This document shows, piece after piece, positions 21,620 through 63,300 of a stretch of DNA of 64,000 bases. The notes beneath the pieces were generated by a model that was given only the letters and a program-made list of their open reading frames with translations, was not told where the DNA came from and made no database searches. How positions within the stretch are numbered: the stretch's first letter is position 1; each line of letters starts with the position of its first letter. Made by a program: the position numbers and the translations under genes. The stretch is from Sphaerolaimus hirsutus (taxonomy: Eukaryota; Nematoda; Chromadorea; Monhysterida; Sphaerolaimidae): positions 27,904,997-27,968,996 of the forward strand of contig OZ038453.1 in the NCBI GenBank assembly GCA_964036195.1, read 5' to 3'.

Positions 21620-21676
21620 CTGGAATAAGTATTCTAAAATTGATTTTCTCTCCACCAGTATTGTGTTAAAGCACAG

Positions 21677-22889: not shown

Positions 22890-22974
22890 GCTTTCCACTA
22901 GTCCTCACATTATTCAAAAAACACTTAACCTTAATCTTTGTTGTTAAAATAGAAAATGGTATAAAATAAAAACG

Positions 22975-23172: not shown

Positions 23173-23193
23173 TTTAGGATACCTTTACTGAAT

Positions 23194-25204: not shown

Positions 25205-25326
25205 ACTAAACTCAGGGCAACAAGCTTAGATAGTTGAGCGAAAAACCGTATTTCCTCGAAATACCCCCCCCCCCCCCCCTCAAAATGGGCACTATGAATA
25301 TGTGGTCCGGGAAATGCATAACAGAC

Positions 25327-27202: not shown

Positions 27203-27328
27203 ATGGTAAATGAAGTTTGCTCAATGAAAATCGTCATTTTTATATTTTATGTGATAAAAATCATTGGCGCGTCAAATGTTGAGCAACTCAGGACGTTCAA
27301 GCTAAAAGACGAAAAATGCGACCATCCC
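27203..27328 (+). CDS. Candidate first exon with signal peptide (copy 1)
   Basis: ATG at 27203 (or in-frame ATG at 27224) is followed by a hydrophobic core (MKIVIFIFYVIKIIGA), then SNVEQLRTFKLKDEKCDHP up to donor CCC|GTGAGA. It fits a secreted or membrane protein N-terminus. Its exit phase 0 does not match the next recognised exon (which needs phase 1), so a small exon is missing from the model or this belongs to another transcript. Confidence 0.55.
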
Positions 27329-30300
27329 GTGAGAATTTAAAACTTTTTTTTTTGTATTCTGCAATTGAACATTGAAAAATGGGCAATATCGAGAGAATAA
27401 AATTTTATATACCGAAATTATATATATTGAAATACCCCCTACAATACTACGAATTCCACGAGATTTTCTGGCGAAATAATAAAACCCCCCTCGAATAACC
27501 CCCCCTCGAATAAACCCCCCTCAAATTTTGCTGGCGAAATAATAAACCCCCATGGGGGTATTTCGAGGTAATACGGTAGGTATCTTAGAAAACCTTTCAA
27601 AATGAATATAACGATATCTCAGTGGAAAAACATTATGTAGTAAAACATGTAGTAAGTTCAATCAACTACTACAATTAGAAAAGTATAAATAAATATAAGA
27701 GTGACATTTTATAAATATTTTCTGATATTTATCTAAATTATGATTATAGGAGGAGTCCGTCTAGAAGTAGGGGTATGTAATTCCGTTAGAAAATAAATCA
27801 CTAAAATGACTACGCCGTGTTAACATCCCTAAGGTAAAATGTTTACTTGGGAACCTGTAAAATAAATGAGAAAAAACTTTTCACAAATGAAAAAATGCTT
27901 AGAAACTATTTTCATAAGGTGAATGGTTAAAGTGTAGCCATTAGCTTAAAACCATGTACCGTATTTCCTCGAAATACCCCCAGGGGGTGTATTTTTTCAG
28001 AGTGAGAATTTTGAGGGGGGGGTTAAACGAGGGGGGTATTTCGAGGGGGGGGGGGTCATTATTTCGCCAGAATTTTTTTGAAATCCCAGTACTAAATTGT
28101 TGTTTGTAACGAGCACAGACGTCCAAAAATGCAACAAAAACGGCAATCTATAAGACTCTATAGACTTCTAGAAGTACGTAGACGGTAAAAACCCTGTTCT
28201 AACATAACACAGTCATTGTTTACACGTGTATTCTGCGGTTCCCGGATCAAACCGTAGCTTTTGTCATTTACATCCTCTATACACTATATTTGGGGGGGGG
28301 GGGGTATTTCGAGGGGGCAGACCTGATACGCACATCTGCCCGTTACGCACATTTGCCCATTTTTTTCACTTGACACATTTTCAAGTGATTTTCAGATATG
28401 AGTAAAGTGAAAAAAGTTGCGCAATGACATTAGTGAACTTTTTCACTTCACTCATATCTGAAAATCACTTGGAAAAGTGTCAAGTGAAAAAAACGGGCAG
28501 ATGTGCGTATCAGTGCACCCCCATTTCTCGGGGGGGGGGGGGGGGGTTATCAGTTCATAGTGTCTACTTTGAGGGGGGGGGGGTTTCAAGGGGGGGTTGG
28601 TATTTCGAGGAAATACGGTAGAAGGTTCTGTCCTATTATACTCAACCAATTATTCAAATAATTCCCACCGTGATTTTGCCATTGCAAAATATTTAAAATA
28701 CGATGTCAACAGCAAAAAAAACCTCGCAGGGTTGCTTCGTGAAATCCAAGAATGACAAAGGTGTGGTAACATTGAATCTGGAAGCTAAAATCGATGCTCC
28801 AGGTGCCACTCCCAGACCTTGTAGAATGCCCTGTAAAATGTCAAACTGTCTAAAGTTGTGGGAAATGTCATTGAAGTTTGATTGACAATTGACATTTTAC
28901 TGGGCGTTTCACATGACGCTGTACACTCAGCATTTAAAAAACCGATTTTTTGGAAAATATATATAAATATATCACTCCAAATTTATAAAAAAAAAATATA
29001 TATATATATAAATCATGGGTTATTTATATTTATTGTGATTTTCAAAAATATAAATCACGGGTTATTTTTCAAATGCTATGTACACTTTACATGACAATTT
29101 GCACGTCATTTTACATGTCTTTTGACACTTTGCATGACATTTGACATTTTAACGAGCATTTTACAGGGTCTGGGACTGCCCCCAGAAGATCTCATTCAAT
29201 CTGAAAATGCGACCAAAGATGAGAAATCGCCAAAATCTGACATTGAAAATTATTTGAGGCAAACATGTTGGAAAGAGAAATTATTGGTTGGCCCCTGTTT
29301 TGGTTGCAGAGAGGCGGGAACAGAAAATTTGAGTGAAAATTGCACATTGAAACCAGCATTGGTTAACCATTTGGGTGAATATTATGCAATTCAGGTAATT
29401 TTGGAAATTAATAACTTTCCAATGTGTGCCATATGTTGGATTTTTTTTGCAATATCTAGAAAAATTGATTTTGAACTTTGAATAATTTGAAATTAGGTAT
29501 GTTTCACATAATGTATTTGCGAAACAACCATGTTTTTAGTCAAACTCCTGTGAAAAACATTGATGATTTAATGATCTTCGTATCTTTGAGATCGGTGAAA
29601 TGACACGCAATGCAATGCAACTAGTACAAGTAGATAATTGGAGAGTGGATAATGTGTACCTGTTACCGTATTTCTTCTAATAGAACGGCATAACTCCAAT
29701 AGAACGGCACCTCCAATATAACGGCACCTCCAATATAACGGCAGGTTTTGACACTTTTTTCCACCGACGAAATAAATAGAATGGCAGCCTCCAACAGAAC
29801 GGCACCTCCAATATAACAGCAGGTTTTGACACTTTTTTCCACCGACGAAATAAATAGAAGGGCAGCCTCCAATAGAACGGCACCTCGAATAGAACGGTGG
29901 GTAGAAATTACATTGGGAGGGTGCCAAAACACCAACAAATGACAGATGGGTGGTGAGAACATCAAGGTGTTCAGAACTATAATTTAAGGGTTGTTTTCAT
30001 ATTTGGTTTTGTTTGAATACATGTTCTGATATTAACATGCTGCTCGTGTTTCATACAAAATACTGTGTTCAAATGAAAAATGTGTGAAAAAATTGGTGAG
30101 CAAATAGAATGGCACCTGCAATAGAACGACAGGTAAAAAAAGTTGACAAATAAAATAGAACGGCGCTCTTCTATCATAGAAGAAATACAGTATCATCATA
30201 ACACGTTACTTTTCTTTAAAAGATGTTGCTATAATACAACTTTTTTTCAGATTCAACTACCACAGAAGCCCATAATATTATATGCAACTTACAAAATCAG

Positions 30301-33300
30301 CTGTAGTTTTATTAGCCAGACAACTTCTAACAATTGGCAGCAACAGAAAATAGAAAATGATTTGTCAAAGAACAATCAATTATCAGGCAAAAATTCAAAT
30401 CTTCAAGCTTCACTCAGCTTTACACAAGGCAAAAAATTGGCTGCAATCACAATAACGCCAAAAGCAAAATATTTGGATCCAGCTGAAAATTACATCTTAC
30501 AATGTGACACAAGATCTGGCACTTTGGCGTCAATAAATATTGTTCTAAATGATATAATTGATCAGATGTCCATGGAAAATCAAACAAATTCACAGACAAC
30601 TACTATGTATCCAAATCTTGATCCAGAAATTGACCAAAATTCAGATAAAAAATTCACAGTGCAGAGAGCAGAATTTGATGAAACTCTGACAAAATTGGTG
30701 ATAAAATTTGATAGGAGAGTACTTGGGGATTTTGGCTGCGATGTGTTTCACAATGACACAAGAAAATTGTTTGGTGGTTTGTTCATTGCAAACCTGCATG
30801 TGACATATTTCCTCGAAATAACCCCTTCCCTTGAGTTGACCCCCCTTGATAAAATTTTGTGTAAAATTGAGTTTTGAACGTGATATTTGAACAAAAACAA
30901 ACAAAAATAACATGAAAAAATCAATTTTTCGGTCACTCTGTATTCAAGGCCTGTAGCTGTAGGTACCCCGTATTTCCTCGAAATACCCCCCCCCCCTCAA
31001 AATCGGCACTATGAATTTGTGGTCCGAGAAATGCATAACAGATGTTCAAAACACTTACTGTGTTACGTTAGAACATAGTTTATACCATCTACATCCTTAT
31101 ATAAAGCTGTAAAAACTTATAAATGGTGGTTATTGTTGCATGTTTCACGTTTTTCTCTCAAAATTATCACTCTGAAACAATCACCCCCCGGGGGGTATTT
31201 CGAGGAAATACGGTAATTTACAGCTGTAAACGCCTGCCAAAGTTTCACCATAATAAAATATAGTGCTGAAATTTTTGATTTAGCACTTTTTGTAATGCTG
31301 TAAATAGCTGATTTTTCCTCAATTAGTTTTATATCATACCTGTTTCACAGACCCCCAAAAAGTGCTGTGCAATTGGCACGGCCAGAAATTGATCGTTTCC
31401 CTGGCGCCAAATGCAAATATTACGCTAAAATCGCCACTGCAAATGTTTGAAAATCGAGTTTGGCCCCAGGCGGAGTACAAGCCGAACAGGTGCCAGTCCC
31501 AGGCCCTGTAAAATGCCATGTAAAATGTCAAATGTCATGCAAAGTGTCAAAAGTCATGGAAAATGCTTTGAAAAATGGCAACTGAGTTGCCATGTTGCAG
31601 GGCATCTTTCATTACTTTTTACAGTTTGCATCACATTTGACATTTTACAGGGTCTGGGACTGCCACCAGACTGCCTGAACCGGATTTGGATCCAGGGATC
31701 AAATTCAAATAGCTGGGTACTTGTTTTTTTGACAACCAGGGATCAATGATCAAAAGTAAAACAGAACATTTTAGAAGTGAGAAGAGAAAGGTATAGTTCT
31801 CTCTTCTAAAAGTTTTTGTCCTCACTCACTCGCGGAATTTGTACTAGAGTTGATGCCTGCACAAGCTCGATCTGTAAACTGAATATTTGGGAAAGTGTTT
31901 TTTTGCAACATTTGTAGACATTTAAAGAAATCCTTATTTGTGTGAACTTGCTCTTGACAAAAAAATTGGCGTTTGAAAAATCTTTTTTCTTTGGATGTAA
32001 GGTATTATGGAATTGATGGAATTATTATTAGGTATATAATAAAAAATATCATTAAAAAGTGACTGCCCAAAAAACAATCATACAAGCTAAATGAATTTGA
32101 TCCTGGTCAAAGTGGTAGGCCTGGAGGTCATCAGAATATTGGCCACATAAATGATGATCAAAATACAATGGCCCTACCCCTGCACACACCTATTGGCAGT
32201 GTTATTGAGGTGAATTATTTTTAATTTTTTACTTTTGCGTAGGGTGACAAATTTCCATTTTCCGTTTTCTGTTTTCATTTTCCGCAGGCAATTTTTTCCT
32301 CTTTTCCGTTCTGTTTTCCGGCCATAGAATTTTTTTTTGTTTTCCATTCCGTTTTCCGGCTACTACATTTTTTCCCATTCTGTTTCCGTTTGTTCCAGCT
32401 CATTTCCGTTTTCCAGCTAAATTTTCAGTTTTTCTGGCTTTTTCCCCATTTTCTGGCTCAATTTTCTGTTTTTCCACCTTTTTTCCATTTTCTGGCTCAA
32501 TTTTCTGTTTTTCCACCTTCTTTTCTCTTTTTCCGGCTCAACTGGTTGTTTTCTGTATCAGCCAAACTGGTAAACATGCATGCAGGTTTTCAATTATGTG
32601 ATTTTTTTCCTTTTCCAGCAAATTTCAGCAATTTTTTCCATTTTCCGGTAAAATTTCAGCAATTTTTTTCCGTTTCCCGTTTTACAGCTTTGTTTCCCGT
32701 TTTCCGCCCGCTGAAAATTTTTTTCCATTTCCGTTTTCCGCAAAGTGCACAATTCTGTCTGTTTCCGTTTCCGTTTTCCGGCAGGTGCAAAAAAAATTCC
32801 GTTTCCGTTTTCCGTAAACATATTTTTTGGCACCCGCCTACTTTTGCGGCTCTACCTCCCCCCTTCTACCTCTACCAAATTATATTCCATACTTATTCCA
32901 TACATCATTTCAAATCTGGGTATTTTGAGAGGGTGGGAGTAATTCAACCGGGGGGGGGGGGGAGATTCGAGGGAATCGATCGTGTAACAAATCCCCAAAT
33001 TACACATTTCAGCCTCAAATGCGCATAATGCACTCAAAACAGTCCCTCCTACCAGACTGTGACAAAGATGGCATTTTACTGACCGCTCAAACTTTGGCTG
33101 GGGCTGGTTTCAAAGCACTCAGTTATACCTGGAAGTGGATCTGTTCCCGTGGGGATAGAAGGGAGGAAATTGGTGGGTATACTGAATACTCGACGGACCG
33201 CAAAGCGTGCGCCCAAATAACTTATGTCTTAGTCGATGATTAGTAAGTAGGATACTTATGCTGCACTTTCAGACAAAAATATTTTTTAAAGAAAAGGCGG

Positions 33301-36300
33301 AGTCGCGTACAAGATATAACCGTATTTTTATCGAACCATTTTTCCCTGCTTTTTTAACAATTTTTTATTTTATTTCCCTTTAAAACAATGCTTAACGTGC
33401 GGTTCGCGGAATATAGGTAGTTTGTATGTTACTTTTTGTTGAAAAAGTTTGATGTATTGTTGGGAGGTTTACAGCTCTGTTGGGATGTTTACTTTTTGAG
33501 TTATTACATTTACATTACCGTATTACCTCGAATTATCCCCCCCCCTTGAATTGATCCCCCCCTCGAATAAACCCCCCCTCAAAATGGGCTGGGGAAATAA
33601 TAAACCCCCCCCCCTCGAAATACCCCCCCCCTTCGGAATGATGTACATCACGTACATAATAAATACGTCATGTATGCAATGTACATGATGTATATTACTG
33701 TTAATTTACATTGCAGCTACACATACTAGTTTGTGTAGCTATCTACGTTTTTATGTCCAAATATATCCTGTTTGGACACATTTTTTACCTGTTTTGGGTA
33801 TGAAAATGCCTACTATTTACTACGGTAATACGGTATTTGAGGAATTTATTTCATTCATTATGTTTCATTTTTTACCTACAGAATGCACTGCTACAGGACA
33901 GAAATTGGTCATAACTGCTGACAATGTAAGTGACAACAATAACATGCATAACTAAATTGAAATTTTGAATGAGCATTTCCTCTTTTTTATATACCCACTC
34001 AAATTTTTGATTTTTCATTTTGCGAGAATTTGGCTGCCAGGAATTTAATACAAGAATATTCACAACACCTACCACAAATCGGCTTACGTACCCTATCCCC
34101 CCATGGACTTCTTACCCCCTGGGTTGATATAGCCCTCGAGGACTACTTCACCCGGAGGACTACTTCGACCCGACTTTTATAACGTGGGATGATGTAGTCC
34201 TCCATACAAAATATATAATTACACTATTGGGGCATCTGTTTGGCCATGGGAATGTGTTTGATATTTCCTTTTATTTATTGCGATGCAAGAACACTGCTTG
34301 CAACAGATCAAAAATATTTATTGACGCGTGGCATGCCACAATTATGCACGCGTCTGTTTGGCCTATTGGCATTGATTATCGATTGCGTAGGTAAATGAAG
34401 AACAATGCATGCAACTTCAAAACTCAATTTCTCGGCCATTTCTCAGCCGATTTTCACCAATGAACACTTAAAATGATCAGAATCACATGGAGATTGCATT
34501 TTTATGTTCAGATTATTAAGAATTCGGTAAACTCATGGTAATCATGACAGACAAATCGCCAATATACTACAGACAAAACGCAAATGCAACACAGACAAAA
34601 AGCGAATGCAACACAGAAAAAACACCAATGGATCACAGACAAAATGCTTTGGCATTTTGCTGTGTTGCATTGGTGTTTTGTCTCTGTTGCATTCGCGTTT
34701 TGTCTGTGTTGCATTGATGTTTTGTCTGTGATCCATTGGGGTTTTGTCTGTGTTGCATTGGCGTTTTGTCTGTAGTAAATTGGCGATTTGTCTGTCATGA
34801 TTACCATGAGTTTACCAAATTCATAATAATCTGAACATAAAAATGCAATCTCCATGTGATTCTGATCATTTTAAGTGTTCATCGGCTGAGAAATGACCAA
34901 GAAATTAAGTTTTGAAGTTGCATGCATTGTTATTTGTTTACCCACACAATCGATAATCGATGCAATAGGCCTAACAGATGCGTGCATAACTGTGGCGTGC
35001 CACGCGTCAATAAATATTTTTGATCTGATGCAAGCAGGTCGCGGGCAGCGGGTCAATCCGGGAATAAGTCCAGTTATGGGACTTTTGCCATATTGGATTT
35101 TAGCAGGGGTCAATGGCGTGTGCGGGAAAATAGGTCCGCCGCTTGAATGATGTAATACGCGTGCAGACTGCAGATGTATATTTAAAAAATATCCTAACTT
35201 CACCACAATTTATTTTTACTATTATTTTTTACTTTTACTATATTTATATTAGTAACTATTCACTTTATCATGCCGTTGATCATAATTTTTCATAGTAATC
35301 TCCAATGCTACATAAGTGCCTAAAATGTATGTTGTCCTGCTGGTTTCATGTCAGATAGTAGACCCTGAAACCTGTACCAGCCCCAATTTTATACCAAAAA
35401 TGCTAATTTTTTGAGTTAAATCTTTCAGCTGATCTCAGTTTCTTTCTCTTATTCCGGATTATAAATACGTCTGCACGCGAATTACATAATTCGGGCGGCG
35501 GACGTATTTATCCGCACACGCAGGTCAATGTAACACACAGTAGGTAATATATATAAAATGGGTTGATATACCGTATTTCCTCGAAATACCCCCCGGGGGG
35601 TGATTGTTTCATAGTGGTCCCGAGAGGGGGGGGGGGTTAAACGAGGGGGGGTATTTCGAGGGGGGGGGTTGTATTATTTCACNNNNNNNNNNNNNNNNNN
35701 NNNNNNNNNNNNNNNNNNNNNNNNNNNNNNNNNNNNNNNNNNNNNNNNNNNNNNNNNNNNNNNNNNNNNNNNNNNNNNNNNNNNNNNNNNNNNNNNNNNN
35801 NNNNNNNNNNNNNNNNNNNNNNNNNNNNNNNNNNNNNNNNNNNNNNNNNNNNNNNNNNNNNNNNNNNNNNNNNNNNNNNNNNATGTTTTTGGGTGAAAAC
35901 CAATAAGTATAGAGATTGGACGCCTCAATTTTATAGATTATGCAATAATGCACAACAGATAATGTATTTTTCATGTTGTCATAGCTTTGTCGGAGGGTTT
36001 GTTCTACGCGGCCTCGCTAGCGAGGCCGCGTAGAACAAACCCTCCGACAAAGCTACGACAACATGAAAAAAGTGTGATCTAGTGTGGCGTGATTAGGGAA
36101 CATTATGGAATTTGATGTTTGCCCCAGGCAGTGAAGCTGGCACAATCACGATCAATTGAGGTATCACACATGTAATATATTTCACGTTGATTGCACAAGA
36201 AAAGTTATAAAAATTTCGTTTTTTGTCGTCACAGCAAATCCGTGTAAACGCCGCCTTAGGGTAAATTAGAAGCTGCAAAAATGCCATGTTTACTGTATCT

Positions 36301-39300
36301 GCTTGAAAAGAAAAATAAATCCACAGGTGTGTTATTTCATCAGATAAATATTTGAGAAATAGCTGGCCAATTTTGGGGTTCACGTAATTGTAGCCAAAGA
36401 TTATTACCATTCCAGTTTGATGGCACTGGAACCGGATAACGCATATGCATATGAAAAAGCACACACACACACACACAGACACTGGGTGTGTCTGAAGCAG
36501 CACACTTCCACATTCTACCACCAGCATCATGTGAACTTCCTTCACACGCTTCACATAGCTTCACCACTACTTCAGGGCTCCCAAAAGTGTGCCAGACACT
36601 TCACGGTGCTGGTGCTTCCTCACGCTTCACCAACATAAATCATATTTCTTCTGATTGAAGGGTGCCCTTCTATTTTTTCATTAACTATTTTAATTTATCA
36701 CCATCATTTCAACCATAGCGTTTTTCCCAACACCATCATTTATCGCCAATGACACGAAAAAGCCAGAATTACCATTAGGCCCTGTTTTTTGTGACGACTC
36801 AACAACAATAAAACGTTCAATAAGTTGAGTAAAAAGGTTCCATATTCATTAAAAAAAGTGGTCAAGTATACCTTCTACCTAAGCAAATATGCAGGCCAAA
36901 TTGCAGACTCGTGCTTGTAGCTCAAGATTTATAATGTCTGAAAAAAGTTTGCTATTGTTGCTGGCTGTCGGAGACAGTCCGACAACTGTCCAACAACTGC
37001 AAAAGTTTTCAAACACCTTTAACTCATGAGCTACAAGCACAATTGTGCAATTTGACATGCATATTTGCCTAGGTAAGATGTATAATTGACCACTTTTTCT
37101 CATAAATATGGAACATTTTTACTCAACTTATTGCATGTTTTATTTTTGTCGAGTCGTCACAAAAAAATCCGTGTAAACGGGGTCGTATGATTTTTGTTTT
37201 GGTGCCGGTGCCAAGCCCCAGCAGCAAGCATTTTCTTCCTGGCACCATACAAAAAATAGCAGAGAATGGGTTTAGAAAGCATTTTTCATGGGTGGTAGTC
37301 TAAATGTACGTTTTTGTTTCCATTGAAAATATGTAAACACCTTCCTGGACAAGTTAGCCACCCATTTTTTTCACATCAGAAGCTATATCTGCGGCTATGG
37401 GCTATTGTTTTTTATCTATTTGATATTTATGATGTTCTCATAAGTTATTTCTATGATTTGTTATTTATAACAAGTTGTACAAAAAATACAAGTTTACAAT
37501 CAATGAAAGGGTAAATCAATTTGGAGTAATTAAGAATGCACAATAAGTAATCACTCAAACCTGCATTGAAATGTTTAAACAGATTTACCGTATTTCCTCG
37601 AAATACCCCCCGGGGGGGTGATTGTTTCATAGTGGTCCCGAGAGGGGGGGGGGTTAAACGAGGGGGGGGTATTTCGAGGGGGGGGGGTTATTATTTCACA
37701 AGAAAATTTTTGAAAACCAAGTACGAAATTGTCGTCTGAAACGTACGCAGACGTCGAAAAATGCAACAAAAACCGCCATTTATAAGGTTCTGTAGACTAA
37801 TATTAGTACGTAGATGGTATAAACACTGTTCTAACATGATTCCGACATTGTTTTAACGTGTGTTCTGCACTACGCAGAACACAAACTGCAGTATTTGTCA
37901 TGTACGTTCTCTTTACACTCAATTTGGGGGGGGGGGGTGGTATTTCGAGGGGGGGGGTGATTGTTTCATAGTGGTCTCGAGAGGGGGGGGGTCAAACGAG
38001 GGGGGGGTATTTCGAGGGGGGGGGTATTTCGAGGAAATACGGTAAACTCTTGTGGAAGCATTATAACCTGATATTTATAACATACATAGTCACCACAGTC
38101 AAAATTATTAACCAAAAGTTTATCACTTTACACTTAGTGTGATCACAATAAATATGAAGCCTTTTCTTCTGAAAGTTGATAACTCCAAAAAAAATCGATT
38201 TTGAGAAAATGTCACTTTAATGTTTTATTTCCAATTGTATGTCGGTGGTGCATGTGCAATGATGCTCACTGATTATCATCATAGTTGTTAAAACGTATCT
38301 ACTTGTACTTGATAAATACGTATACTCGAGTACCCAGTGATTACGTTTACGTTTTCTCTGAAACAAGTTCCTATACTCAGTTTTACCTATACTTTTTGAA
38401 AGTACTCGAGTACAGAAAAACGTATTTCTGATAGATTTTTTTATAGTTTTTTCTAGGCATGAAGGGAGAAAATGGTGAAAAAGGCTGAAAAATAGAGAAA
38501 GTTTTTAAAAATGGGTGTATGAGATCATATAAAATCAAAAAATCTGAAAATAGGCAAATTTAAATGTGAAAATGGGCAAACGTATGAAAATTAGTGATTT
38601 TGAGTGTACATTTGGTGCATAATTTTTGAAAAATATACACTTTCACGTTTTCTGGGGGAAAAGTATTTTACTCATGTTTACTCATTAGTAAAAGTAAAAA
38701 ATATTTACTTTACGTTTTCTGTACTCAATGATAGAGTAAAAATTAAATACTTTACATTTACATATACTTTACATATACTTTACATTTACATGTACTTTAC
38801 ATATAGGAAAAGTTCCGTAGATTTAACAACTCTGATTATCACTAAGTTCCAAATGTTAAATACAAAGTGAACAATTTTCCGCCACTGCTCTCAACAAATA
38901 CGCGAGCAGTGACCTTTCCACAAAATACTTTTGGCTCGGAACAAAAAAGGGCCCAGGAAGAAGGCTACTAAGCAGGGATCTTTGTTATCTTCTTGCCAAT
39001 CAGAATTGTTCTTAATTGTTCCAAAAGTGTCAAAATGTGATACTTTAAAAGGGCAAACTGACATTGAACAAATTCAGAAAATGGTGAAAAATGTGTGGGA
39101 CCACCTATCAATGCCATTTAAGTGTTAACTCGATTTTTTAAAGTTTGGAATATTGACTTTTAGAAGTGAAGACCATTTGGCCTCGGTCCAAACATTTGTC
39201 TCATTTTTGCTTCATACTCGTCTTGCCCACGATAATCTCCATAACCTGCCCCGGTTCCATCAGATCTGTCTGGGGGCAGTCCCAGACACTGTAAAATTCC

Positions 39301-42300
39301 CTGTAAACTGTCAAATGTCATGCAAAGTGTCAAAAGTCATGTAAAATGCCCGGTAAAATGGCCATTTAACCGGGCATTTTACATGACTTTTGAAACTTTG
39401 CATGACATTTGACTTGACAGTTTACAGGGCATTTTACAGGGTCTGGGATTGACACCTGGTGTTATTCTCCATTGCCACGGTCCAAGAGTTACTGCATTCC
39501 CTGGAATAAGTATTCTAAAATTGATTTTCTCTCCACCAGTATTGTGTCTAAGCACAGTAAGTGATATAAAAGCGCCAGGATATTTGTGCCTAGCGCCAAA
39601 ATAACTATGGCACTACTCCAAACCCAAGAGCCAGGAGCCAATGGCATCGAGACAAAATGGTGCCACTGCCTAATGCCAGAGTGCCATGGGGCTTTTTCCT
39701 TTGGCACAAGCGCCAAGCGCCAGCACCAGGCTTTTTGTTCCTGGCGCCATGCAAAAATAGCGCCGTGGCACTTTTCATGGGTGTGGTGCCAAGTGCCAAG
39801 GCTATTTACACAGGCCTTGGCTGGGGACCAGTCCCCACCAAAAAATTAAGATTGTCAAAAGTCAGTAATTGGTGTGTATGGGTTGATTGCATGTAAATTA
39901 GGTTAATTAACACAAAATTTGCATGCACCAAATTTCTGCAACACGGTTACACACACCCATGCATTGTTTTGGGGGGTGTGTGTAAATTTATTTTGATTTG
40001 GCTCAAATTTGGCATGTGTGTACTCCTTCGCTTAGTGAGTTTGCATGCCAAATTTCAGCTCAGGGCGATTAGTGAATCCTATTTTATTTAGACTTTAATT
40101 TTCTTCAATCACTGTATTTTTGTATAGTGATCAAAATCCTGCCGGGGACCGGTCCCTGGCAATGTCAAAATGGCCCCGACTGGGGATGAACGCCCCCGGT
40201 CGGGGACGAATGTCCCCTGTTGGGGACCAAAATTTGTTGTTTACTGAAAAAAAAATTCTCACTGGGGACGTTTGACCCTGGTCGGGGCCATTTCGACTTT
40301 GCCGGGGACTGGTCCCCGGCAGGATTTCAATCACTATACAAAAATACAGTGATCGATGAAAATTAAAGTCTAAATAAAATAGGATTCACTAATCGCCCTG
40401 AGCTGACATTTGGCATGCTAACTCATTAAGTGAAGGAGTACATGCATGCCAAAATTCTGACAAATCCAAAAAAAATTATACACTCCCCCAAAGAAAATGC
40501 ATCAGCGCATGTAACTGTCTTGCAAAAATTCTGTGCATGCTAATTTGGTGATAATTCACCAAATTAACATGCAAACAACCCATACACGCCAATTATAGAC
40601 TTTTGAAGAAAAATTTTTTTGCCAGGGACCGGTCCCCGGCCGGGACCTGTGTAAAGAGCCAAGCGCCAATGGCGCAACAACAATATAGCGCCAAGCGCCA
40701 AGCGCTATGGCGCTTTTTGCTTTGGTGTTAGTGCCAGGCACCAGTGTCATGGCGTTTTTCCATCCACTAGCTTTCCACTAGTCCTCACATTATTCAAAAA
40801 ACACTTCACCTTAATCTTTGTTGTTAAAATAGAAAATGGTATAAAATAAGAACGTCAGTCATAAGTTCTTCCTCCACAAGGCACAGTGTTCTTTACAGGC
40901 CACTTACTATTAGGTCCAAAGATTTGCCTCATCTTTGAAAGATGCCTATTTTGTCCACTGTATCCTTCATAACCCCTACCGTATCCAGCGTTTGTCATTG
41001 AGAGCATGCAACTACAGAATGTGGCAACCAGAACAAAAGTGAGTGGATGCATTTTAGGATACCTTTACTGAATAGGGTTCAAACTGGATCTGAATGCTTA
41101 TCATTTTTGTCATTTAGCGATCCTGATGCTAATCCTGATTCTAATCCTAATCCTGATCCTGAAATTTGAAAATCCAAATCCTGATCCCAAAAATTGTTCA
41201 ATTTCCATTTACAATCCGGGAAATTACCTGATTCAAAAGTGAAAAATGACTTGTTTGTGCTGAGAAATACGAATGGAAGCCTCAAGGGTGCATTGTATCA
41301 AATTGCATATAAAAACTTTGTGGAAAATTAGGAGAACTCCAAACTTTTTGGCCAAAATCCTGACACTGATCCTGGTCCCAGAATTTCTAAATGCAAATCC
41401 CAATCCTGAGACTCAAATCCCAATCCCAAAAATTCAAAAAAACAATCCTTATTGTGATCTCAAAAAGTCAATCCAAATTGAACCCTAACCCGCACTTCAG
41501 TGTAGTGAATTTCAGAAGGAACTTTGTTTGCTATTTAGGTTTTGAAAACACATCAAAAATGTCTGTATAATTCAGCATTGTGTGGTTTTGACTTTTGTAC
41601 TGATGTAACTAGGGATGGTTATGGATTTTAAAAGAATTTTTTTGTAAAGTATCTGATTTTCAGACAGCATCTAACAGCAGAAAAAATGCCAAAACATTAT
41701 ATTTAGCAGTGATTCTTCAGATAATTTACAATGTTTATCAGCATGAAACTTAGACATATAAACTATTCAATGGTTCCATTGCTACCACATAAGTATGCCA
41801 CATGCATAATTTCTATCAATAATCATTCCTGATAATATAGGGTGGCCCACGTCAGGCGCATGGTTTCAATTGGCTCCCAACACGTCAATTTTGAATGAAA
41901 ACTGCTCAAATTTGGTATGGGGGTAGATAAATGTACCCCATTTGTAGTGTTTAGTGCACGGTTCCACATCGCAAAAATTCATGTCGGAACATGAAGAAAA
42001 GTTTAATGCGTGTTTGAGCGTGGCGCATGTCAGGCAATCATCTACCAAAGCACCAATTATTCATAAAAATAGTCCAAATTTGGCATGACAGTAGATAAAT
42101 GTAAACTCGGCAGACATGAAACGAATCAGCTTTCCTTCGTTTATGTACGAGTAAGATATGTCTCAAATTCGAATTCGAACGGACGGATTCCGTTCGATTC
42201 ACAGTTTATTTAAACCGATTGAACTTTCAAATGTAAAAAATAAATGGATTGAGCACGGATATAAAAATACACAGTCGGAAAGGTAGATATCTCGCTCAAA

Positions 42301-51300: not shown

Positions 51301-54300
51301 AGCACCGGTGCTGGTGCGGTGCCCATGCAATTTTTAGAGGTGCCCTGCCGGTGCCGGTGCCATTTTTTGCAGAATAGCACCGGTGCCGGTGCGGTGCGGT
51401 GCCATTCTTTGGCCGGTGCCCCAGGGTGCCAGGTGTTCTTTCCATGCGTTGGCAAAGGTGCCGGTGCGGTGCGGTGCCATTTTTCCCGGTGCCTTTAACA
51501 TCACTAGGGGTGGGAGTAGTTCAACCGGGGGGGGGGGGGGATTCAAGGAAATCGATCGTGTAAAAAATCCCCAAATTACACATTTCAGCCTCAAGTGCGC
51601 ATAATGCACTCAAAACAGTCCCTCCTACCAAACTGTGACAAAGATGGCATTTTACTGACCGCTCAAACTTTGGCTGGGGCTGGTTTCAAAGCACTCAGTT
51701 ATACCTGGAAGTGGATCTGTTCCCGTGGGGATAGAAGGGAGGAAAATGGTTGGTATACTGAATACTCGACGGACCGCAAAGCGTGCGCCCAAAAACACTT
51801 ATGTCTTAGTCGATGATGAGCGAGTAGGATACTTATGCTGCACTTTCAGACAAAAATATTTTTTAAAGAAAAGGCGGAGTCGCGTACAAGATATAACCGT
51901 ATTTTTATCGAACCATTTTTTTCCTGCTTTAAAAAAAAATTTTTTTTCCCTAAACAATGCATAACGTGCGGTCCGCGGAATATACCGTATTTGCTTGAAT
52001 AGTTCCCCCCCTTGAAAAATTCCCCCCTCGAATAATCCCCCCCCGTGTAAGACAAGTGAGGAAATAATAATTCCCCCCCTCGAATAATTCCCCCCTTAAA
52101 ATATTTGATCAATTGTTTGTGCCCAATATTAACAAAAATGGCACGTTCTTGTGTAAATTAAGCATATTTCATTAAATGTGTTGATAGAAACATGCTTTAA
52201 AATTTTCACGAAACAATAATTCCCCTCCTCGAATAATTCCCCCCCTTGAATAGTTCCCCCCTCAAAATAGTCTGACGAAATAATAATCCCCCAGGGGGAT
52301 TATTCAAGCAAATACGGTAGGTAGTTTGTATGTTATTTTTTGTTGAAAAAGTTTGATGTATTGTTGGGAGGTTTACAGCTCTGTTGGGAGGTTTACTTTT
52401 TGAGTTATTACATTTACATTATTTGAGGAATTTATTTCATTCATTATGTTTCATTTTTTACCTACAGAATGCACTGCTACAGGACAGAAATTGGTCATAA
52501 CTGCTGACAATGTAAGTGACAACAATAATATGCATAACTAAATTGAAATTTTGAATGAGCATTTCCTCTTTTTTATATACCCACTCAAATTTTTACTTTT
52601 TCATTTTGCGAGAATTTGGCTGCCAGGAATTTAATACAACGAATATTCACAACACCTACCACAAATCTACCTATAACAATAATAATAATAAAGTGGGACA
52701 GAGCGGATTAATGCACACCTAAATAAATACATACTTTACAGTTCCCCAGCACAAACCAAGTATCACTATCAGCATGCAATTTCGCCCAAATCTGCACCAG
52801 ACAACCAGTTATGTCAGCTGAGCTGCAGTTGGCAAATGCACCATTGGCAAATGCACACGTATTCACAGTGAAACTGGAGGGGCTCATTGCACAAGCTGTG
52901 CATTTTACATCCAGAGCACTTGGGGTCACTGCCAATGTGGAGTTTAGACATTGCGATGGAAATGCACTTGGAAGTGGATTTGATTGGCAGGGGGATGTTT
53001 TGGTCTGTGTTACAATGTGTTTTTTGTTTGTCTTTTTTTTTTTTTGGGGGGGGGGGGTCAAAACCATATTTTTTTGTTGAACACTAGGCATAGATGAACA
53101 TTTTTGTGTAAAAAAGTTTTTCGGGAAATATTTCTAAAAATTATATTCTACCGTACTTTTTCACAATTATGAAAATTCACTTCTGTAAATATCAATGTGT
53201 TCCAGTTTGTGTGGCACATAAATGGCGTCAAACAACAAGATTTGGATATGCATGCAAGCAGTCTACACATTCCAGTTGGTACACTGATGGAAATGGCCAT
53301 AAAAGATGAGCTTTTCCTGGAGAAAATACCTGTCAATGAAATTCAAGTTGATGGTTGGAATGAGTTTTTTTTGTTGTTTTTTTTCAAATGGGTTGTTGTG
53401 TGGGTTTTCGTAATGGATAAATATGCTGTCAGGGGGTATTCCCAAACAGGGTTGGGAATTTCAAAATTTTTGGGTTTGGCATTCGTGTTTTAGGCCGGGT
53501 ATAGGATTTCGGTTCCAAACAAGATTCGGGTATCGGCATCTGGTCGGATCGGGTTTGCTTTCAGACCCTGTAAAATGTAAAATTTGTCAAAGATTTTTTT
53601 GCCCAACTCAGTGGTAAGCTTTCCATGTGAGGCTAAGCGCGTTACAAATTGTCAGAATCCATTTTGCGTATTTGTAACATTCTGAATATTTGCACCTATT
53701 TTATTTGCAGCAACATTAACACTGGACACGGGCAGACAGTTATCCGCCACTGATCGCATAAATTTTGGATTGTTGCCAGAAAAAATTACCATGCAATTGT
53801 CACCAAAATCACAGCAGACACCTGTGAATGAAGATGTAATAATTGATGGCAGAAATTCTTACGACAGCAATTTTGTGCCGCACAGAGAATTGCAATTGAA
53901 ATGGGAATGTTTCAAGGTTTTTAAATATGGCAATTTGCAGGAGTGTTCTCTTATTATGAATGGTGATAAAGGAGTTATGTTCAGAGAAAGTTCTTATGTC
54001 AAAGGAACGATGTTGAATGTTCCTGCTGGATATTTGGGCATGGGAAGGTTGCTTTTCAGTTACCGTATTACCTCGAATAATCCCCCCTTGAATTAACCCC
54101 CCCCCCCTCGAATTACCCCCCCTTGAATTAACCAACCCCCCCTCGAAGTAACCCCCCCTCAAAATTGGCTAGGGAAATAATACATCCCCCCTCGAAATAC
54201 CCCCCTCTGGAATGATGTACATCATGTATGCAATGTACATGATGTATTTATTACTGCTAATTTCCATTGCAGTTACACATAGGTAGACTATTTTGTGTAA

Positions 54301-57300
54301 CTATCCAAGTCCTTACGTCCAAATATATCCTGTTTGGACTCTTTTCTTACCTGTTTTGAGTACGAAAATGCCTACTGTTTACTATGATTCTTATGAAATT
54401 TCTGACGAAATAATGAAACCCCCCTCGAATAAAACCCCCCTCGAATAAACCCCCCCTCGAATTAACCCCCCCCCCCTCAAATTTTGCTGGCGAAATAATA
54501 AACCCCCATGGGGGTATTTCGAGGTAATACGGTATATTAGAACCTATGGATTTTTTTGAAGGAAACACTCCAATTATGATTTCATCATTTATAAAATCTA
54601 AATTGTTCCAAAAAGAAGATTAAAACCTTTCAGGAAAAAAACATTAATCGCTTGTATCTGCCTCCAACTTTTTTTATATTTTACATGTTTTGTGAAAGAA
54701 CATGCATAAGTATCCTACTCGGAATTCCTGATCAAGACATAAGTAACCTTGGACGCATACTTTTCAGTCCACTGAGTACTTTCCAACAAGGTTTTACTTT
54801 CACAGATACAAGATCATCGCCACTGCAATTCTACCATATGAAGCTCAACTAAAGAAACTTGGCTCCAATATAGAAACTTTGGTGGCACAAAGCCAAGTTT
54901 CGGCAGAAGTAGAAATAACAAACCCAACTGATTTCACTGTACAAATTGCGCCATTAACAAGAACATACAATGTGCATGAATTCATCCCACTAAATGTTTT
55001 GGTGAAAACTAGAAGAGATACCAAAGTGTACTGGCATTTTGTTCAGGATTTGGAAGGTTTGAACAGTATATAAAAAGCATATGACCTTATAACATGATAC
55101 CTACAATAGCCCAGAAACTTTTGTGGACACATTCTGCCCAAGAAATCCCACTTTTATGGACACATTCTGCAGGACATAAGTTCCACTCACAAACTTAATG
55201 CACATGGTCATCCATCACTTGTACCATAAACTCCCTAAAAGCCAGAGCCTGGAATGTGTCCACAAAAAGAGACATAATTTTCTGGCTTATAAGTAACTTT
55301 TTATGAGGTCATGAGCTCTTGTATACTGCTGGTTTGTCATGTCAAAATTGGCACGCTGGAGAAATATAACATTTTCTTTTTTGAACAACACTTTCTCAGA
55401 TTATGGATATACCACCATGCTGAAGAAAAATGGTGTACATTTTTTGAATGTGTCTGAAGATGGAAAAATAACACATTTTCCTTTGGAAATTGGAATACCA
55501 ACATCAAACAAGTTTGAAAATTTTCTGATTCAATTTCAGCCCATTTTTCAAAATACAGTCATGACTTTCAATTTGCAGTCAAACAGCAGGTTTGCTGCCA
55601 GATGTACCATATTTGCTCAAAATTGAAGCTAAAACAGAGGATTCTGATGAGTTAAAGCAGGATTTCAACAATATGAGGTTAATAGCCGCTGATGAAAGTG
55701 TTTCAAATCAAAAAGGAAAATTGACAAAATTTGGAGTTAACATGGCTGCCCAAATATCTGTCAATGCACCACCAACCATTGGAAAAATTGACAGATTCCC
55801 AAATTCAAAGGTTCATTCACTGTTTTGTAGTTTCACTACCTCTTGCGGACACAATTAATTTATCAGTTGTGCAAATGGAAGGAATACCAAACTATCTTTT
55901 ACAACCCACAAATACTTTTATACCCACAACCCACAGACAGTCCCAGCTCTCAGCCCAGTTACTCTGGCAGTAGGTTCAGGTTGGGTAGACAAAAAACTGG
56001 ACTACCCATTGATGTATGAATTTGGACTTCTGTTCCACTCAAATGCTGTGGATGGTGACAGGCAATTGTGGTTTGGACTGTCATCTGCTACAAGTTTTGT
56101 AGTCTATTTGCCAACTGGTGTGTAATAATTGTCATATTTCATTTTTTTAAATTTATGATTTTTATTGATTTTTTTCTTATTGAATTTAAAAAAACTAAGT
56201 CAATAAATAAAAAATGAAACATGCATAGCTGAGCACACCTCCACACACTTTATAGATTAAAAAAATTTCAGGGTGTCTCCCTCACTATTCAATTATTGAT
56301 GACAAGCAAATTTGTAAAGCATCTGATACTGTATTTATGTACACTGAGGTTTCTTCACAGCAAACATGTTGGTGTAATCATAGTTCACAACATTTCACAT
56401 CAGAGTACATCACACATCATTTTTTTGCTGTTTCTCTACTTAGTGCCATTAAATCTTCAAATTATGGTTTTTATATTTCGTAATGTGAGATGAAAAGTAT
56501 AAACATTTTACACTCCCCCCCCTGCAGCTTGGCCGGGTACTCACGCGGCTTGCAAATGGCGTACAGGTGCCACTCCCAGACCCTGTAAAATGCCATGTAA
56601 AATGTCAAATGTCATGCAATATTTCAAAAGTCATGGAAAATGTAAAATGTACATTTGCCATATTCCAGGACAAAAGTGTCAACACGTGCCCCCAACCAGA
56701 TTACAGGACACTTTACACGACTTCTGATACTTTACATGTCATTTCAAATTTCACAAAAAGGCATTTTACATGCTCTGAGAGTGCCCCCAGGCATCAGCCC
56801 CCTGCTGCGAGTGTGCGACAGACATCTGGCCTGCTCAACAGCGATTGGCAATGCGCCAATTCTGGTCACACCTCCATTGCTGGCACCAGCACCAGAGTTT
56901 GGCACCAAGGTGCCTGGTGCTGGTTTTGATGGATGGAGTGGGGAGGCTCTGCGGCTGGGACAGATGTTTTTTGACGATGTGAAACATGGTAAGTTTGTGG
57001 TGGTTGAATGTTTCTATTTCCTTCTGTTTCCGTTTTCCAAAGGACACATTTTTATCTTTCTGTTTTCTGGCTGCCAAAATTTATTTTGGGAATCTGAATG
57101 AAACGTAAAAAATAGGTAAAAATTTTTTAGATTTTTTTTTTCTTGAGATTTTTTCAATGCTAATCACCAACTTTGAATCTTGCAATCAGGAATATAAATA
57201 AAAGAATATGAAATGTGAAAAAATCCACACAACACAGGTCAATTAATAAATGCCTATCAAAAATTGGAAGCACTTAAAGCAGAGTTTTGTGGAGATCAGC

Positions 57301-60300
57301 AAAAAGTGATGACACTTACTGAGGCACTTTTGGATGCAATAACTGATCAAAGTTACATGGAGAGGTAATATAATGCAGTTTTTTAGTGTTGAAAAAAATT
57401 GAAAGGTGCATTTTTATTTAATGTATAATAATCTCTGGATACAGGACAACAGACGACTTATGTACGTGGTCTGTTCCAAAAGTAATGCTCTAGCTGCAAA
57501 AAGTGTTTGTCGAATGTTGTGATAAACTTTTCTGATTGTTATGTATTAAGGTTGACAGCATAACAACAAATAAAAGGTGAAACCACAAATTCAGTCTCAA
57601 CTAATTACAAATACGCAAGAATGTTTAGAGATATCAATCCCTAAATTGACATGTTGAAAGCACTATTCAATATCTATTATATTGTGCCCAAAAAATTATC
57701 AAAAGGGTCTGTTTGAAGGATAGTATTCATGGGGCACATTTTTCAAGCAGGAGGTTTATTTGTTTTCAAAACATTTCAAGCTGTTTTATAAACAAAATTA
57801 CATGTCATGTTCAAATTGGACACATCTAATTGATCATTGAGGTTAATTTTAAGGAGGGATCATTTTTTCTGCAGTTTACTAACATGGGGATTAGTCAAAA
57901 TTTGATTTTTACAAATTATTCAAGCAAATAAAATACTCTGTTTCATAAAACTCACTGTTTCATACTGTTTCATAAAACAACATGCTTCACCATAAAAGAA
58001 AAATAAAAGCATTGAATTTTTTTTCAAATGTAGAAAACTTTTCAACAACTTTTAACAGTCACTTTTTGGATAGTATCCATTACTTTTCAAAGAGACCAGG
58101 TACCACATTGAAGCAGCTGGTGCCAATACCAGACCGTGAAAAAATCCTGTAAAATTGAAATGTCATGCAAAGTGTCAAAAGTCATAGAAAAAGCCCTGCA
58201 AGATGGCAACTCTGCAGGGCATTTTCATGACTTTTGACACTCTGCACAACATTTGACATTTTACAGGGCATTTTACAGGGTTTGGGAGTGCCGCCAGGGC
58301 GACACTGCCAAAAATTCAAATGGAACAATCAGCAAAAAAACAATGCATTTCTATGAAAACTCTCTTTTTGAGCTATCATCCAGAATTGTTGGATGGATGC
58401 CAAAAGTTAATGTTGAAAAGGCTGACCGGGTAAAGAGACAAACAACAAAATTGGAGGGTGGGGATGTTTTGGTTGTGTCAAGTTGCACTCAGCGGGTAGC
58501 AAAATGCAATGATATTGAAAATGATCAAGCTTTTGACAATGCTGTAGGTTTTTTCTGAAATATTTTTTAAGGCAGTGTTTACAGTCAATGACAGTGTGAC
58601 TACAATTTTTTTATATTTTTTGAACATTTCTGGGCTGAGAATGAAACATCTGATATGCTTGATCAATAGTGATTTGATCAACCCACAACCTAATAAATAC
58701 ATAAAACACCACATATTTCACAATCATGCACACTAGATCATACCTTTTTCCTGTCGTCACAGGCTGTCACAGAAATTTGTTCTAGGAGCCTCGTGAACAA
58801 GGCTGCATAAGACAGTGTTTACACTGCATTTTTGTGATGACTCTGACAACACTTGAAAAAGTTCCATAAGTTGAGTGAAAAGTTCCATATTCATGAGTGA
58901 AGCCTCTATAGATCATGACTTGATCATCAGCCCCACTTCCTAAGACAAACATCAAATTATATACATTGCATGTTCATGCACACTAGATCAGACTTTTTTG
59001 TTGTCAGAGGCTGTCGCTGTACCGTAAATGCTCTATTAGGACGACACCCCTCCAATAAAGCGACCTCTCCAATAGTACGACCCCCTTTGGCACGTTGTGT
59101 AAGTATAAAGCAACCCTCTCCAATAATCCAACCCCCTCCAATAATCCGACCCCCAAAGAAAAAGAAAAAAAAAGAAAAACGATGTTGCAATCTTCTGACA
59201 CCGCTAATTGATATTGTTGAACCCAAATATTAAGTATTCTGAGAATTTTGTGGCTTTGATGTGATTACCTATTGCTTTACGGAGCCATGCTCATACGCGT
59301 TAAATGAAAAGTTAAGTTGTTGATATTTTGAAAAATACAATACGACCCTCTCCAATAAAGCGACCTCTCCAATAATGCGACCCCCAAAAATGTGCTGAAA
59401 ACAATAAACCGACCGTCGCCTTATTGGAGCATTTACGGTATTTGTTCCAGGGGCGTTGTCGGCGGCCTCGTCTAAGGCGCTGGCGACAACAAATACAGCG
59501 ATATCCTCCGACAACAAGAAAAAAGTGTGATCTAGTGTGCATGAACATGCAATGTAAATAATTTTATGTTTGTCTTAGGCAGTGGGGCTGATCAAGTCAT
59601 GATCAATTGAGGCTTCACACACACAGCAAATAATGTGCCCGTGAAGTGCACTGAAGTGGTCTGCAGTGCTCCTTGTGATCACACTTCAGGGCCTGATCAC
59701 GCCTGATAACCAGGCATATCACTTCCCGTGATCACACTTCAGAGTCTGATCACGCCTGATCACCACCGACACTTCACACATTTTATTACTAAATTGTTCA
59801 AACGCCATCACACATGTCAAACATTTCATTCTCATCCCAAAAAATTGTTTAAAAATCAAACCATGGTCATCACACAGTCATTGACTGTAAAAACCGCATA
59901 ACATTTTTCTCGAAAATTACTCGAAAAAATGCACTTTTTCACACAGATCTCAGACATGTTCACGCATTTCATGCAAGTGATGCGCTACGGGGATGGGGAA
60001 CACTTTTTCGATTATATGCACTGCGTTTTGCACTGTCTAGCTGAGAAAATTGTCGGGTGAGATTGGGATTTCCTTTTTTTATTTTTTAAAGAAAAATCTT
60101 GTTTGAAAAAAAGTTTTTAAAAATGCAGACAACATGTTAAAGTGCTGCAATCTGACAATGGTGCGATAAAAATGCGAGTTCTCTCGATGATTCGATCAAT
60201 GCATCTGAACGCTCCAGATTTTCCTATCGGTCATCATGATACTCCAGACGCTTCTAGGGTATGTTTGTGTGTCATACTCTGCACTTGCGCTCTGTATATA

Positions 60301-63300
60301 CTCGAATAATTCCCCCTCTTAAATAATTCCCCCGGTTAGACGAGTGAAAAAAAATCATTCCCCCTCGAAGAAATCCCCCTAATGCTGTGATTACAGCTTG
60401 GGCGTAAAATTGACCTGGCGTAAAATTGATTTTGGGCGTAAAATTAATTACAGATGAATGGATAGAGATATGACATTGTTATTTCAGTGAAAGAAAGCTT
60501 AGATGCAGATGTTTCTTGGGTCCAAAGCTCTTGAGTTTATTTTAATCGTACTGGGCGTTATGAATCTTAGCACAATTTTTCCAATTATGCGCTGTAAGTT
60601 GCGTAAAATTAGGCCGTAAAATTAAAAAAATTTGTGCCAAAATTCATAACTTCTGGCACGACTAAAATAAACTGATGAGCTTTCGACACACTCAACATCT
60701 GCATATGCGCTTTCTTTGACTAAAATTACAACGCCATATCTTTATCCATTCACCTGTAATTAATTTTACGCCCAAAAATCAATTTTATGCCGGTTAATTT
60801 TTTCGCCCGAGCTGTAATCGCAGCATTAAGGCCAATAACAACTCTGATGTCCAGCATTAAGGGGCACTTGAGCTCAATACGAGAAGAGTAGGTTCAATTC
60901 CTACTAGCCGCATTGCAAATTTTGCACTCTTTCTTATTGTGAAAGTAAATATCTACCGTATTTCCTCGAATTACGCCCCGGGGGGTTTATTTTTTCAGAT
61001 TGGAAATTTTGAAGGAGGGGGGGTTAAACGAGGGGAGAGGGGGTTATTATTTCACTGCGAACTTAAGGCGGGAACTAATATACACGTACGTAGACGGTAT
61101 AAACCCTGTTCCAACATCACACACTCATTGTTTTTTACGAGTGTTCGGCGTTTCCCGGAGCTTTTGTCATTTTCGTGTTCTCTATACACAGAATTTGGGG
61201 GGCGGTATTTCGATGGGGGGGGGGGGGTTTATAAACTCATAGTGTCCATTTTGAGGGGGGTATTTCGAGTGGAATTTTTTTCCGAGGAAATACGGTATAT
61301 CAACATTCAGGTTACACTGCACCAAATGAAATCGGTGGATTTATTCATGCGGGATTCTTGTGTCCCAGAAATGGATTGTAGCCAGGCACCAGTTTTCGTA
61401 GCCACTGCACTATTGGCACCGTTCCAAGTGCATAGAGAGTCCTTTGAGCAACATGTGAGTTTGACAGGTTACACAGATATTACACTGGGTGTTGGCGTAG
61501 TTTGTTTGATGAATGTTAAATAAAACAAGTAAATTTATTGAGATATTTTTTGTGTGAATTTAACCCACATTCAATCTCTCAAAAAATCTGCAGATAAAAT
61601 TTTTTTTTAAGTTTTTGGCATCTTTTGGCACTGTAAACAGAGATAAAAACAGCAAATTCAATAAAATAAATGCAACCAGAAGATATACACTTTCCAGGTT
61701 TACAGCAAGCAGACAGCAGGTGCCACACCCAGACCATATAAAAGCCCTGTAAAATGTCAAATGTCATGCAAAGTGTCAAAAGTCATGGAATATGCCCTGC
61801 AAAATGGCAACAGAGTTTCACTTTGCATGACATTTTCCATGACTTTTGACACTTTGCATGACATTTGACACTCTACAGGCTTTTTTACAGGGTCTGGGAG
61901 TGCCCCCAGATGGGTCAAAACTGGGCAAGGCAAAATCGCCACTTTTTTATGTACACATCATGAATAAGTATGGCATGAAGCCTCACCCAGTCAGTGTGAA
62001 CATGGAATATAGAGTCAAGTTATTTTTCCATCCTGAACATAAGTATAGTGTATTGGAAGAGTATGAGGTGTGTTTTGTGAAACTTTGAACTAGTTACAGC
62101 ATTTTCTACAAAAATTTCCCCACTTGAAAAATCCCCCCTGTTAGACAAGTGAGGGAAAAAAATTCTGACAATCAAATAATCCACTCTTTTAGGCATATTC
62201 GGTATACTTTTTGTGTCCAAGTTGAACAAAACTAGCGTGTTTTTTTGTAAATAAAGCATATTTCATGAAATTAGTTAATGGAAGTTCACCTGAAAGTTTT
62301 GATAAAATAATAATGCCCCTCTTAAATAATAATTCTCAATTTGAGCAAATATGGTGTACTCAAGTGCCCTGATACTCTGCAGTCCACATGCACAGTTGAA
62401 TGCCCTACATTGGCAGTGTGCCAACATTTACTATAACTAGCGATGGAAAGGCACCGGGGCACCGGTGCCAGTGCGGTGCGGTGCCAATTTTTTCAGGTGT
62501 CTTTTCCACCACTAACTATACCACGTGCAACCAAAAATATGAATTTTTTTGCTGCTGTTAAAAAACATCAATTTTTCAGCAGCAAGCAATGAATTCGTCC
62601 ACTGTTTTGCATAATATTGGTTATCGTTGGCACGCTGCCAACGGTAACTGCACATTGTCAAGTTTCAAGAGAAAACACAATAATGTATAAAACTCAATTT
62701 TCATCTCTTTTGTCGCAGTGCCGCGTTTTTACCATAGAGTCTAGCGAAATCGGTGGAAAATGGTTGCACCCTGGTGCGTGCACATTTGAACATGGTTCAT
62801 TATTCGATAACTTTGTTGTCTGCCGATGCAATGTCACTGGATTTGTCAGGTCTGTAAAATATGTAGCTACCGTATTTCTTCGAAATACCCCCAGGGGGTT
62901 TATTATTTCGCCAGCAAATTTATAGGGGGGGTTATTCGGGGGGGGGGGGGTTATTCGGGGGGATGGGTCTATTATTTCGCCAGAAATTTTGTGAAATTCC
63001 ACATACCGAGACATAGAAAAATCAAGCATTTACATAGACCTATATGTGTTTATAGAAATACTTATATGTGACTGTATACATGCATAAACCATGCCCTAAA
63101 GTTACTCAGTCATTGGTTTCAACGTGTGTTCTGCAATCTGCATCATACAGATCACAAAATGCGGTTTTTCGTGTACATTCTCTTTACACTAAACTTGGGT
63201 GGGAGTATTTCGAGGGGGGGGGGGTTATTAGCGAGATTTTAGGGTGGTATTTCGAGCGGGGGGTTAATTAAATGGGGGGGGGGGTAATACGGTACAGGCG

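Follow-up and report, generated by a model that had tools for sequence, protein, structure and literature searches.

In a 64,000-nucleotide stretch of the genome of the nematode Sphaerolaimus hirsutus (contig OZ038453.1, positions 27,904,997 to 27,968,996; hereafter the window), several predicted introns consist from end to end of short palindromic elements of one family, which we call L. Genome-wide counts and domain searches make it probable that L is a family of non-autonomous DNA transposons that insert at the triplet CWG (W, A or T) and make introns, a judgment that sets aside how copies at CTG targets would be spliced. On landing at a CAG or CTG triplet in a gene, an element appears to make a new intron whose end signal would be given by the duplicated triplet. 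The origin of introns is an old open question, mass gain has been reported in few animals, and family L allows testing at scale.

An earlier note on this DNA had taken four intervals (I1–I4; Table 1) to be palindromic elements serving as complete introns. Their nature and coordinates were both borne out: each starts with GTGCCA and ends with CAG, and their self-complement scores (69–116) exceed the maxima of 50 shuffles each (26–52). The boundaries of an L profile, built from seven family sequences, are the exact splice dinucleotides at five window loci (J, I2, I3, I4 and K), whereas I1 joins the family by profile matches to its two ends. Similarity up to both boundaries is also seen in L copies across the genome.

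A sense insertion in CAG reads exon-CAG|GTGCC...CCC-CAG|exon. The left arm, GTGCCA, follows the first CWG directly, and the right arm, taken from its outer end inward, starts with G[GTC]GGCA, so that a CTG|GGGGCA-like end, mostly without GT, faces CAG|GTGCCA on the left. We propose that one arm of the element acquired a GT, which the spliceosome would take as donor; the acceptor would be the AG in the second copy of the target, and splicing would remove the element with one target copy and leave the original exon sequence exactly restored. Immediately downstream of the element, the exon starts with G in 34 and with A in 13 of 64 copies (47/64 together), and the CAG|R context is that of a proto-splice site. 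The target triplet alone would provide this context as well as the acceptor, with no later mutation needed. The earlier note had placed the donor in the terminal inverted repeat and the acceptor in its partner end. The donor does lie in the element, but the acceptor AG belongs to the second copy of the target triplet: because the flanking CAG is the duplicated CWG target genome-wide, it is not part of the inverted repeat. RNA folding predicts that the L arms pair with each other as hairpins, which may bring both splice sites together. In these models the terminal AG is not consistently unpaired (pairing probability 0.06 to 0.87 across nine window copies), and a role of the hairpin in presenting the splice sites is conjecture.

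The target duplication emerged from a genome-wide search. In the 348-Mb assembly containing the window, the exact left end GTGCCACTCCCAGACC occurs 1,733 times and its reversed control not at all; CWG precedes 1,385 of these ends (80%), where an even share for 2 of 64 triplets would be about 3%. We sampled 71 copies at 70 loci (L032–L101), namely the first 71 of 100 listed places in coordinate order on contig C1. A right end was recognizable in 59 copies and in none of the other 12. The triplets before the left end and at the right end were CAG/CAG in 28 copies, CTG/CTG in 12, CTG/CAG in 6 and CAG/CTG in 1, with other 3-mers in 12. W was identical at both ends in 40 of the 47 copies with CWG on both sides (p = 3.9e-6), and thus CWG is a target-site duplication, which implies that the copies were inserted. 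Most measured copies (47/59) are 119–203 bp long. Some copies are segmental duplicates, and unique copies with both ends number 54; the flanks have at least 46% GC in 37 of the 54 and are AT-rich in 17. Four exact right ends are the most frequent, with 989, 732, 690 and 389 occurrences, counts in which elements with two right-type arms may appear twice, and CTG stands at 1,121 of the 2,800 ends of these four sequence variants. By its sequence, then, L is a family of miniature inverted-repeat transposable element (MITE) type: short, non-coding, with inverted ends, a target duplication and many copies. Searches for L sequence in other collections gave one 22-base viral-contig match, a chance one inside an open gene, and none in a collection of genome contigs.

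Another possible route is through RNA: excised introns might have been reverse-spliced into new sites, a mode of spread proposed for introners of fungi, and the end-to-end match between copy and intron would suit it. Yet the inverted arms, the 3-bp CWG duplication and the copies in AT-rich flanks are marks of DNA transposition, and an L-related palindrome at 4349–4540 is not an intron-like unit; we consider reverse splicing highly improbable.

The family does not look young. Divergence from the consensus in a sample of 64 copies has a median of 10% and a minimum of 1.1%; the two most similar copies with different flanks are 4.0% apart. These values suit an earlier burst better than ongoing activity, in a sample that is small beside the family. 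The proposal that L is active or recently active found no support in these divergences or in the window, where I1, J and K were already in place before a tandem duplication whose copies have since diverged.

Insertions inside conserved domains

The evidence that L elements interrupt genes comes from protein domains that continue across the junction once the element is removed. We chose by eye 20 sense joins from 191 joined frames (70 copies, both strands). All 20 have GT on the left, and in 11 a Pfam domain spans the junction, nine of them above the Pfam cut-off. These 11 sites lie in 10 loci, and their status as introns is read from sequence. The nine are a receptor ligand-binding domain (L039), a lipase region (L079), bestrophin (L099), OSCP1 twice (L028), carnitine acyltransferase (L076), chondroitin GalNAc-transferase (L053), a C2H2 finger (L018) and COMM (L092); below the cut-off are PAN (L058) and ZP-N (L017). 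Genes of these kinds point to an animal genome. At L009 a glutamate-receptor domain stops at the junction, L083 has a weak C2 match (E = 0.024), L071 has a match at chance level (E = 0.083), and the joined frames of L015, L019, L040, L050, L056 and L086 contain no Pfam domain. As an antisense control, one frame was taken from each of 20 GC-rich copies (six shared with the sense set); none reached E = 0.01 and one match stood at 0.06. The OSCP1 gene has two putative L introns, with matched profile positions 1–47 and 48–89. Together with the genome-wide CWG duplication, the domains crossing junctions argue for the earlier suggestion that these are introner-type elements.

Open reading frames were less informative. 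The earlier note had relied on removal of the element joining exons in frame in all four cases. I2–I4 do fall in a stop-free gene model and I1 joins two open exons, but such frames are weak evidence: random CAG|GT..CAG intervals in the window leave a median of 18 open aa on the shorter side, and the six L loci leave 18–48 aa. We therefore dropped the in-frame join as proof of an intron. The codon score of the flanks was matched by 0 of 1,000 background stretches for I3 and lay above background for I1 (1.9%), but was not clearly above it for I2 (10.5%), I4 (10.8%) or J (21%), and was unusable for K, whose best frame held stops.

Several observations weigh against the creation of introns by L, beginning with the choice of the sense joins by eye and the equal performance of random controls. 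A codon-composition strand test on 35 GC-rich copies outside the training set called 14 sense, 4 antisense and 17 undecided, and among nine CTG/CTG copies it called 3 sense and 2 antisense; this test is too weak by itself. The stop after 14 codons in the coding-looking frame of J is met in both duplicates of that locus. Significance was reached neither by the enrichment of CAG as the 3′ triplet where flanks are GC-rich (26:7 vs. 7:6, p = 0.14) nor by the surplus of CTG/CAG copies relative to CAG/CTG copies (6:1, p = 0.125). The right end is neither CAG nor CTG in 12 of 59 copies, among them L039, which ends in CCG within its receptor domain and matches neither GT-AG nor GT-TG. Finally, the sequence TTTTACAG at position −19 looks better as an acceptor than the terminal CAG, and its use would shift the frame.

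These points bear on the alternative that L elements are ordinary MITEs that break exons or lie in pseudogenes, so that an open join is the empty site and nothing is spliced. In keeping with it, open joins do not exceed random controls, the palindrome at 4349–4540 interrupts open minus-strand sequence but lacks matching splice sites, and CTG/CTG copies have no terminal AG. Pure insertion does not, however, predict a left GT in 20/20 sense joins. Several genes, including OSCP1 and the window model, contain two or more copies whose flanks are open, and the copies are old while the flanking domains still score well. We regard the absence of splicing as unlikely.

A related observation comes from two neighboring lipase-type genes (L078 and L079, at about 12.06 Mb on C1), in which L interrupts one and the same codon. 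The element is preceded by CAG in one gene and by CTG in its neighbor, and both elements end in CAG; thus, a CTG/CAG copy can arise via a silent change in the exon.

Copies at CTG targets

The CTG/CTG copies (12 of the 47 with CWG at both ends) end in TG and have no terminal AG, and some of them lie inside conserved domains (OSCP1 at L028, about 3.592 Mb on C1, bestrophin at L099 and C2H2 at L018). Another CTG copy, L015, lies in a Patched-like gene. The OSCP1 locus also has a putative CAG/CAG L intron and open stretches that, by eye, resemble later exons. CTG/CTG copies diverge from the consensus by 8.4% (n = 16) and CAG/CAG copies by 9.9% (n = 28; p = 0.46); being as diverged, they do not appear to be merely young harmful insertions. 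An AG lies within 28 nt of the end in 18/18 CTG/CTG copies examined, and at −19 in 16/18. The AG at −19 belongs to the element in CAG copies as well (29/32).

Splicing of CTG copies as GT-TG introns is plausible from this arrangement. At least some CTG insertions may be excised exactly in this way, with the conserved TTTTACAG, 19 nt upstream, as the AG of the first step, a possibility that we place somewhat below an even chance. We are equally tentative about the fuller scheme, in which exact GT-TG excision would apply to exonic CTG copies in general: TTTTACAG would act in the first step, and the hairpin would offer the terminal TG to the second.

Alternatively, all splicing may be canonical, with CAG copies removed exactly and CTG copies using another AG (at −9, at −19 or in the exon) at the price of a few codons gained or lost; we judge the chances of this to be just short of even. 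An AG at −9, present in 9/18 CTG/CTG copies, gives an in-frame product with three extra residues in L099, L071, L052 and L044, and introners that add codons are described in Aureococcus in the text of PMC9860276. The −9 AG is missing, however, from L015, L018, L028 and L050. The nearest in-frame alternative deletes two zinc-finger residues in L018; in L028 there are 28 alternatives, the nearest of which costs six residues in a conserved part of OSCP1, and the products of L015 and L050 would be altered more. Nor are right ends with the −9 AG richer in CTG than those without it (389/1,079 vs. 732/1,721); the difference runs in the opposite direction, and we rejected the −9 AG as a general rescue of CTG copies.

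Should exact GT-TG excision hold, constitutive introns with a TG acceptor would number in the hundreds in this genome, alongside AG introns that match them in other respects, and insertion at CWG would directly supply proto-splice-site introns. The chance of A or T at the target would amount to a built-in experiment on what a 3′ splice site needs, run on many hundreds of matched hairpins.

The window loci, gene model and tandem duplication

I2, I3 and I4 are three of the 16 introns of a polycystin-like gene model (52742..62067, plus strand), assembled by hand, which has 17 exons and 907 aa in a single stop-free frame, with GT-AG at 16/16 introns. It contains a REJ domain (E = 8.1e-10), as is typical of polycystin-1-like proteins. 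The exons that immediately precede I2, I3 and I4 have lengths of just 39, 25 and 22 nt, and their joins therefore rest on the gene model. Searches found no homologues of the 907-aa model; a PDB sequence search returned nothing for the REJ exon, the K flank or the model, and chance-level matches only for the exon at 4349.

Table 1. Family L elements and associated features of the window, numbered from its first nucleotide.
Feature	Position	Strand	Description
I1	28803..29185	+	383 bp, GT..AG, flanks CAG/CAG; putative intron between open exons
J	31490..31669	+	180 bp, GT..AG, flanks CAG/CAG; coding-looking joined frame hits TAG after 14 codons
K	21389..21574	-	186 bp, flanks CAG/CAG; between coding-like minus-strand sequence
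I2	56567..56790	+	224 bp, flanks CAG/CAG; putative phase-1 intron, polycystin-like model
I3	58120..58297	+	178 bp, flanks CTG/CAG; putative phase-0 intron, polycystin-like model
I4	61720..61909	+	190 bp, flanks CAG/CAG; putative phase-1 intron, polycystin-like model
Duplicate of I1	46299..46664	+	twin in tandem duplication
Duplicate of J	49786..49953	+	twin in tandem duplication
Duplicate of K	39270..39455	-	twin in tandem duplication
L-related palindrome	4349..4540	.	CAG before (4346-4348), ends in CAG, GT at neither end
Tandem duplication, first copy	18561..34080	+	second copy 36256-52667; I1, J and K in both
Model exons 1-6	52742-53002, 53206-53353, 53711-54047, 54806-55056, 55400-55511, 55579-55810	+	
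Model exons 7-12	55937-56117, 56528-56566, 56791-56988, 57238-57364, 58095-58119, 58298-58543	+	
Model exons 13-17	59947-60056, 60129-60258, 61311-61454, 61698-61719, 61910-62067	+	

The assignment of all four introns to one gene proved too narrow: J and the minus-strand K are similar, only I2–I4 have a place in one model, and I1 and J lie in the tandem duplication, outside that model. Removal of I1 or J joins open sequence within the duplicated region, and open sequence on both sides of K joins on the minus strand. Five further copies had been listed in the window, of which 31490 is J and 21389 is K; 4336 corresponds to the copy at 4349–4540 without GT, and those at 18167 and 25899 (near 18170 and 25900) are decayed. 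The duplicates at 39270, 46299 and 49786 had been missed. The palindrome at 4349–4540 has arms in common with L, yet GT is missing at both ends. It interrupts its minus-strand stretch after ..VGLKCRC|.., and if the element and one CTG are subtracted, the minus-strand frame continues to a GTATGT donor.

The copies of the tandem segment, now several percent diverged, are separated by an assembly gap (a run of N at 35630–35900). Since I1, J and K occur in both, their insertion predates the duplication. Exons differ less than non-coding sequence between the duplicates (11/1,067 vs. 111/2,759, p = 3e-7). This does not amount to evidence of purifying selection on the protein, as there was no silent bias (7 replacement and 3 silent codons, expected replacement share 0.79), in a count that includes one exon (e4) read in the wrong frame. 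The in-frame TAG after J is found in both duplicates (31670–31716 and 49954–50000), where a REJ-like tryptophan might be expected, and the duplicated segment may be partly pseudogenic. An 845-bp insertion (46708–47552) splits the second copy of the exon after I1 and is missing from the first; it has a GCCAAGATC-like repeat at both ends, and its termini, CAGGGTTGG/CATGGTTGG, are ones that we take to be like those of the hAT superfamily. Another repeat family is frequent in the window (e.g. 37586–38042, 54061–54534 and 60955–61292), and its ends resemble TACCGTATT..CGAAATA, the opposite end being in inverted form; some of its copies occur in just one of the two duplicates.

Relation to known introners and transposons

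The CWG duplication points, by analogy, to the PHIS transposons and their NuwaI group, which is described in PMC4482050 as duplicating CWG, having ends that usually begin with GGG and being reported only in animals. L shares the CWG duplication, and its right arm begins with G[GTC]GGCA, mostly GGGGCA. In contrast to NuwaI, which was found via its transposase, L is short and palindromic, with a left arm of GTGCCA. No transposase with L ends came to light: DDE_Tnp_4 has 163 matches in the genome, and the one place read (L102) has no L ends, which gives no backing for this family as the mobilizing partner. Dozens of these matches, which are Harbinger-type, score nearly alike, and the majority extend through some four TGA codons, which might mark an intron; they are probably a separate, recently spread transposon family.

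Among introners, L most resembles the MITE-type elements of Gozashti et al. (2022; PMC9860276), which are likewise transposons that create introns, have inverted ends and duplicate their target. It matches the type that carries its own donor and takes the acceptor from the duplicated target (legend to Figure 2C of that paper). The text of the same paper places introners in only two animal groups. Its abstract, Results and Discussion mention neither a CWG duplication nor a TG acceptor. A literature search that left out most subscription journals and all preprints found no CWG-duplicating introner and no animal family of GT-TG introners.

TG acceptors themselves have precedents. The introner elements IE-B and IE-D of the green alga Micromonas, with 25 and 6 members, are described as having GT-TG splice sites (PMC3879977), and TG replaces AG at the 3′ end as it would in CTG-ended L copies. 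In L, by contrast, the TG would stem from the T form of the target, and it is found at hundreds of right ends. For human U2 introns, PMC2374985 describes TG acceptors only as alternatives, always beside an AG within 28 nt, a distance within which all 18 of the CTG/CTG L copies examined also have an AG. Whereas the human TG is an alternative site, that of L would be the exact, frame-restoring one.

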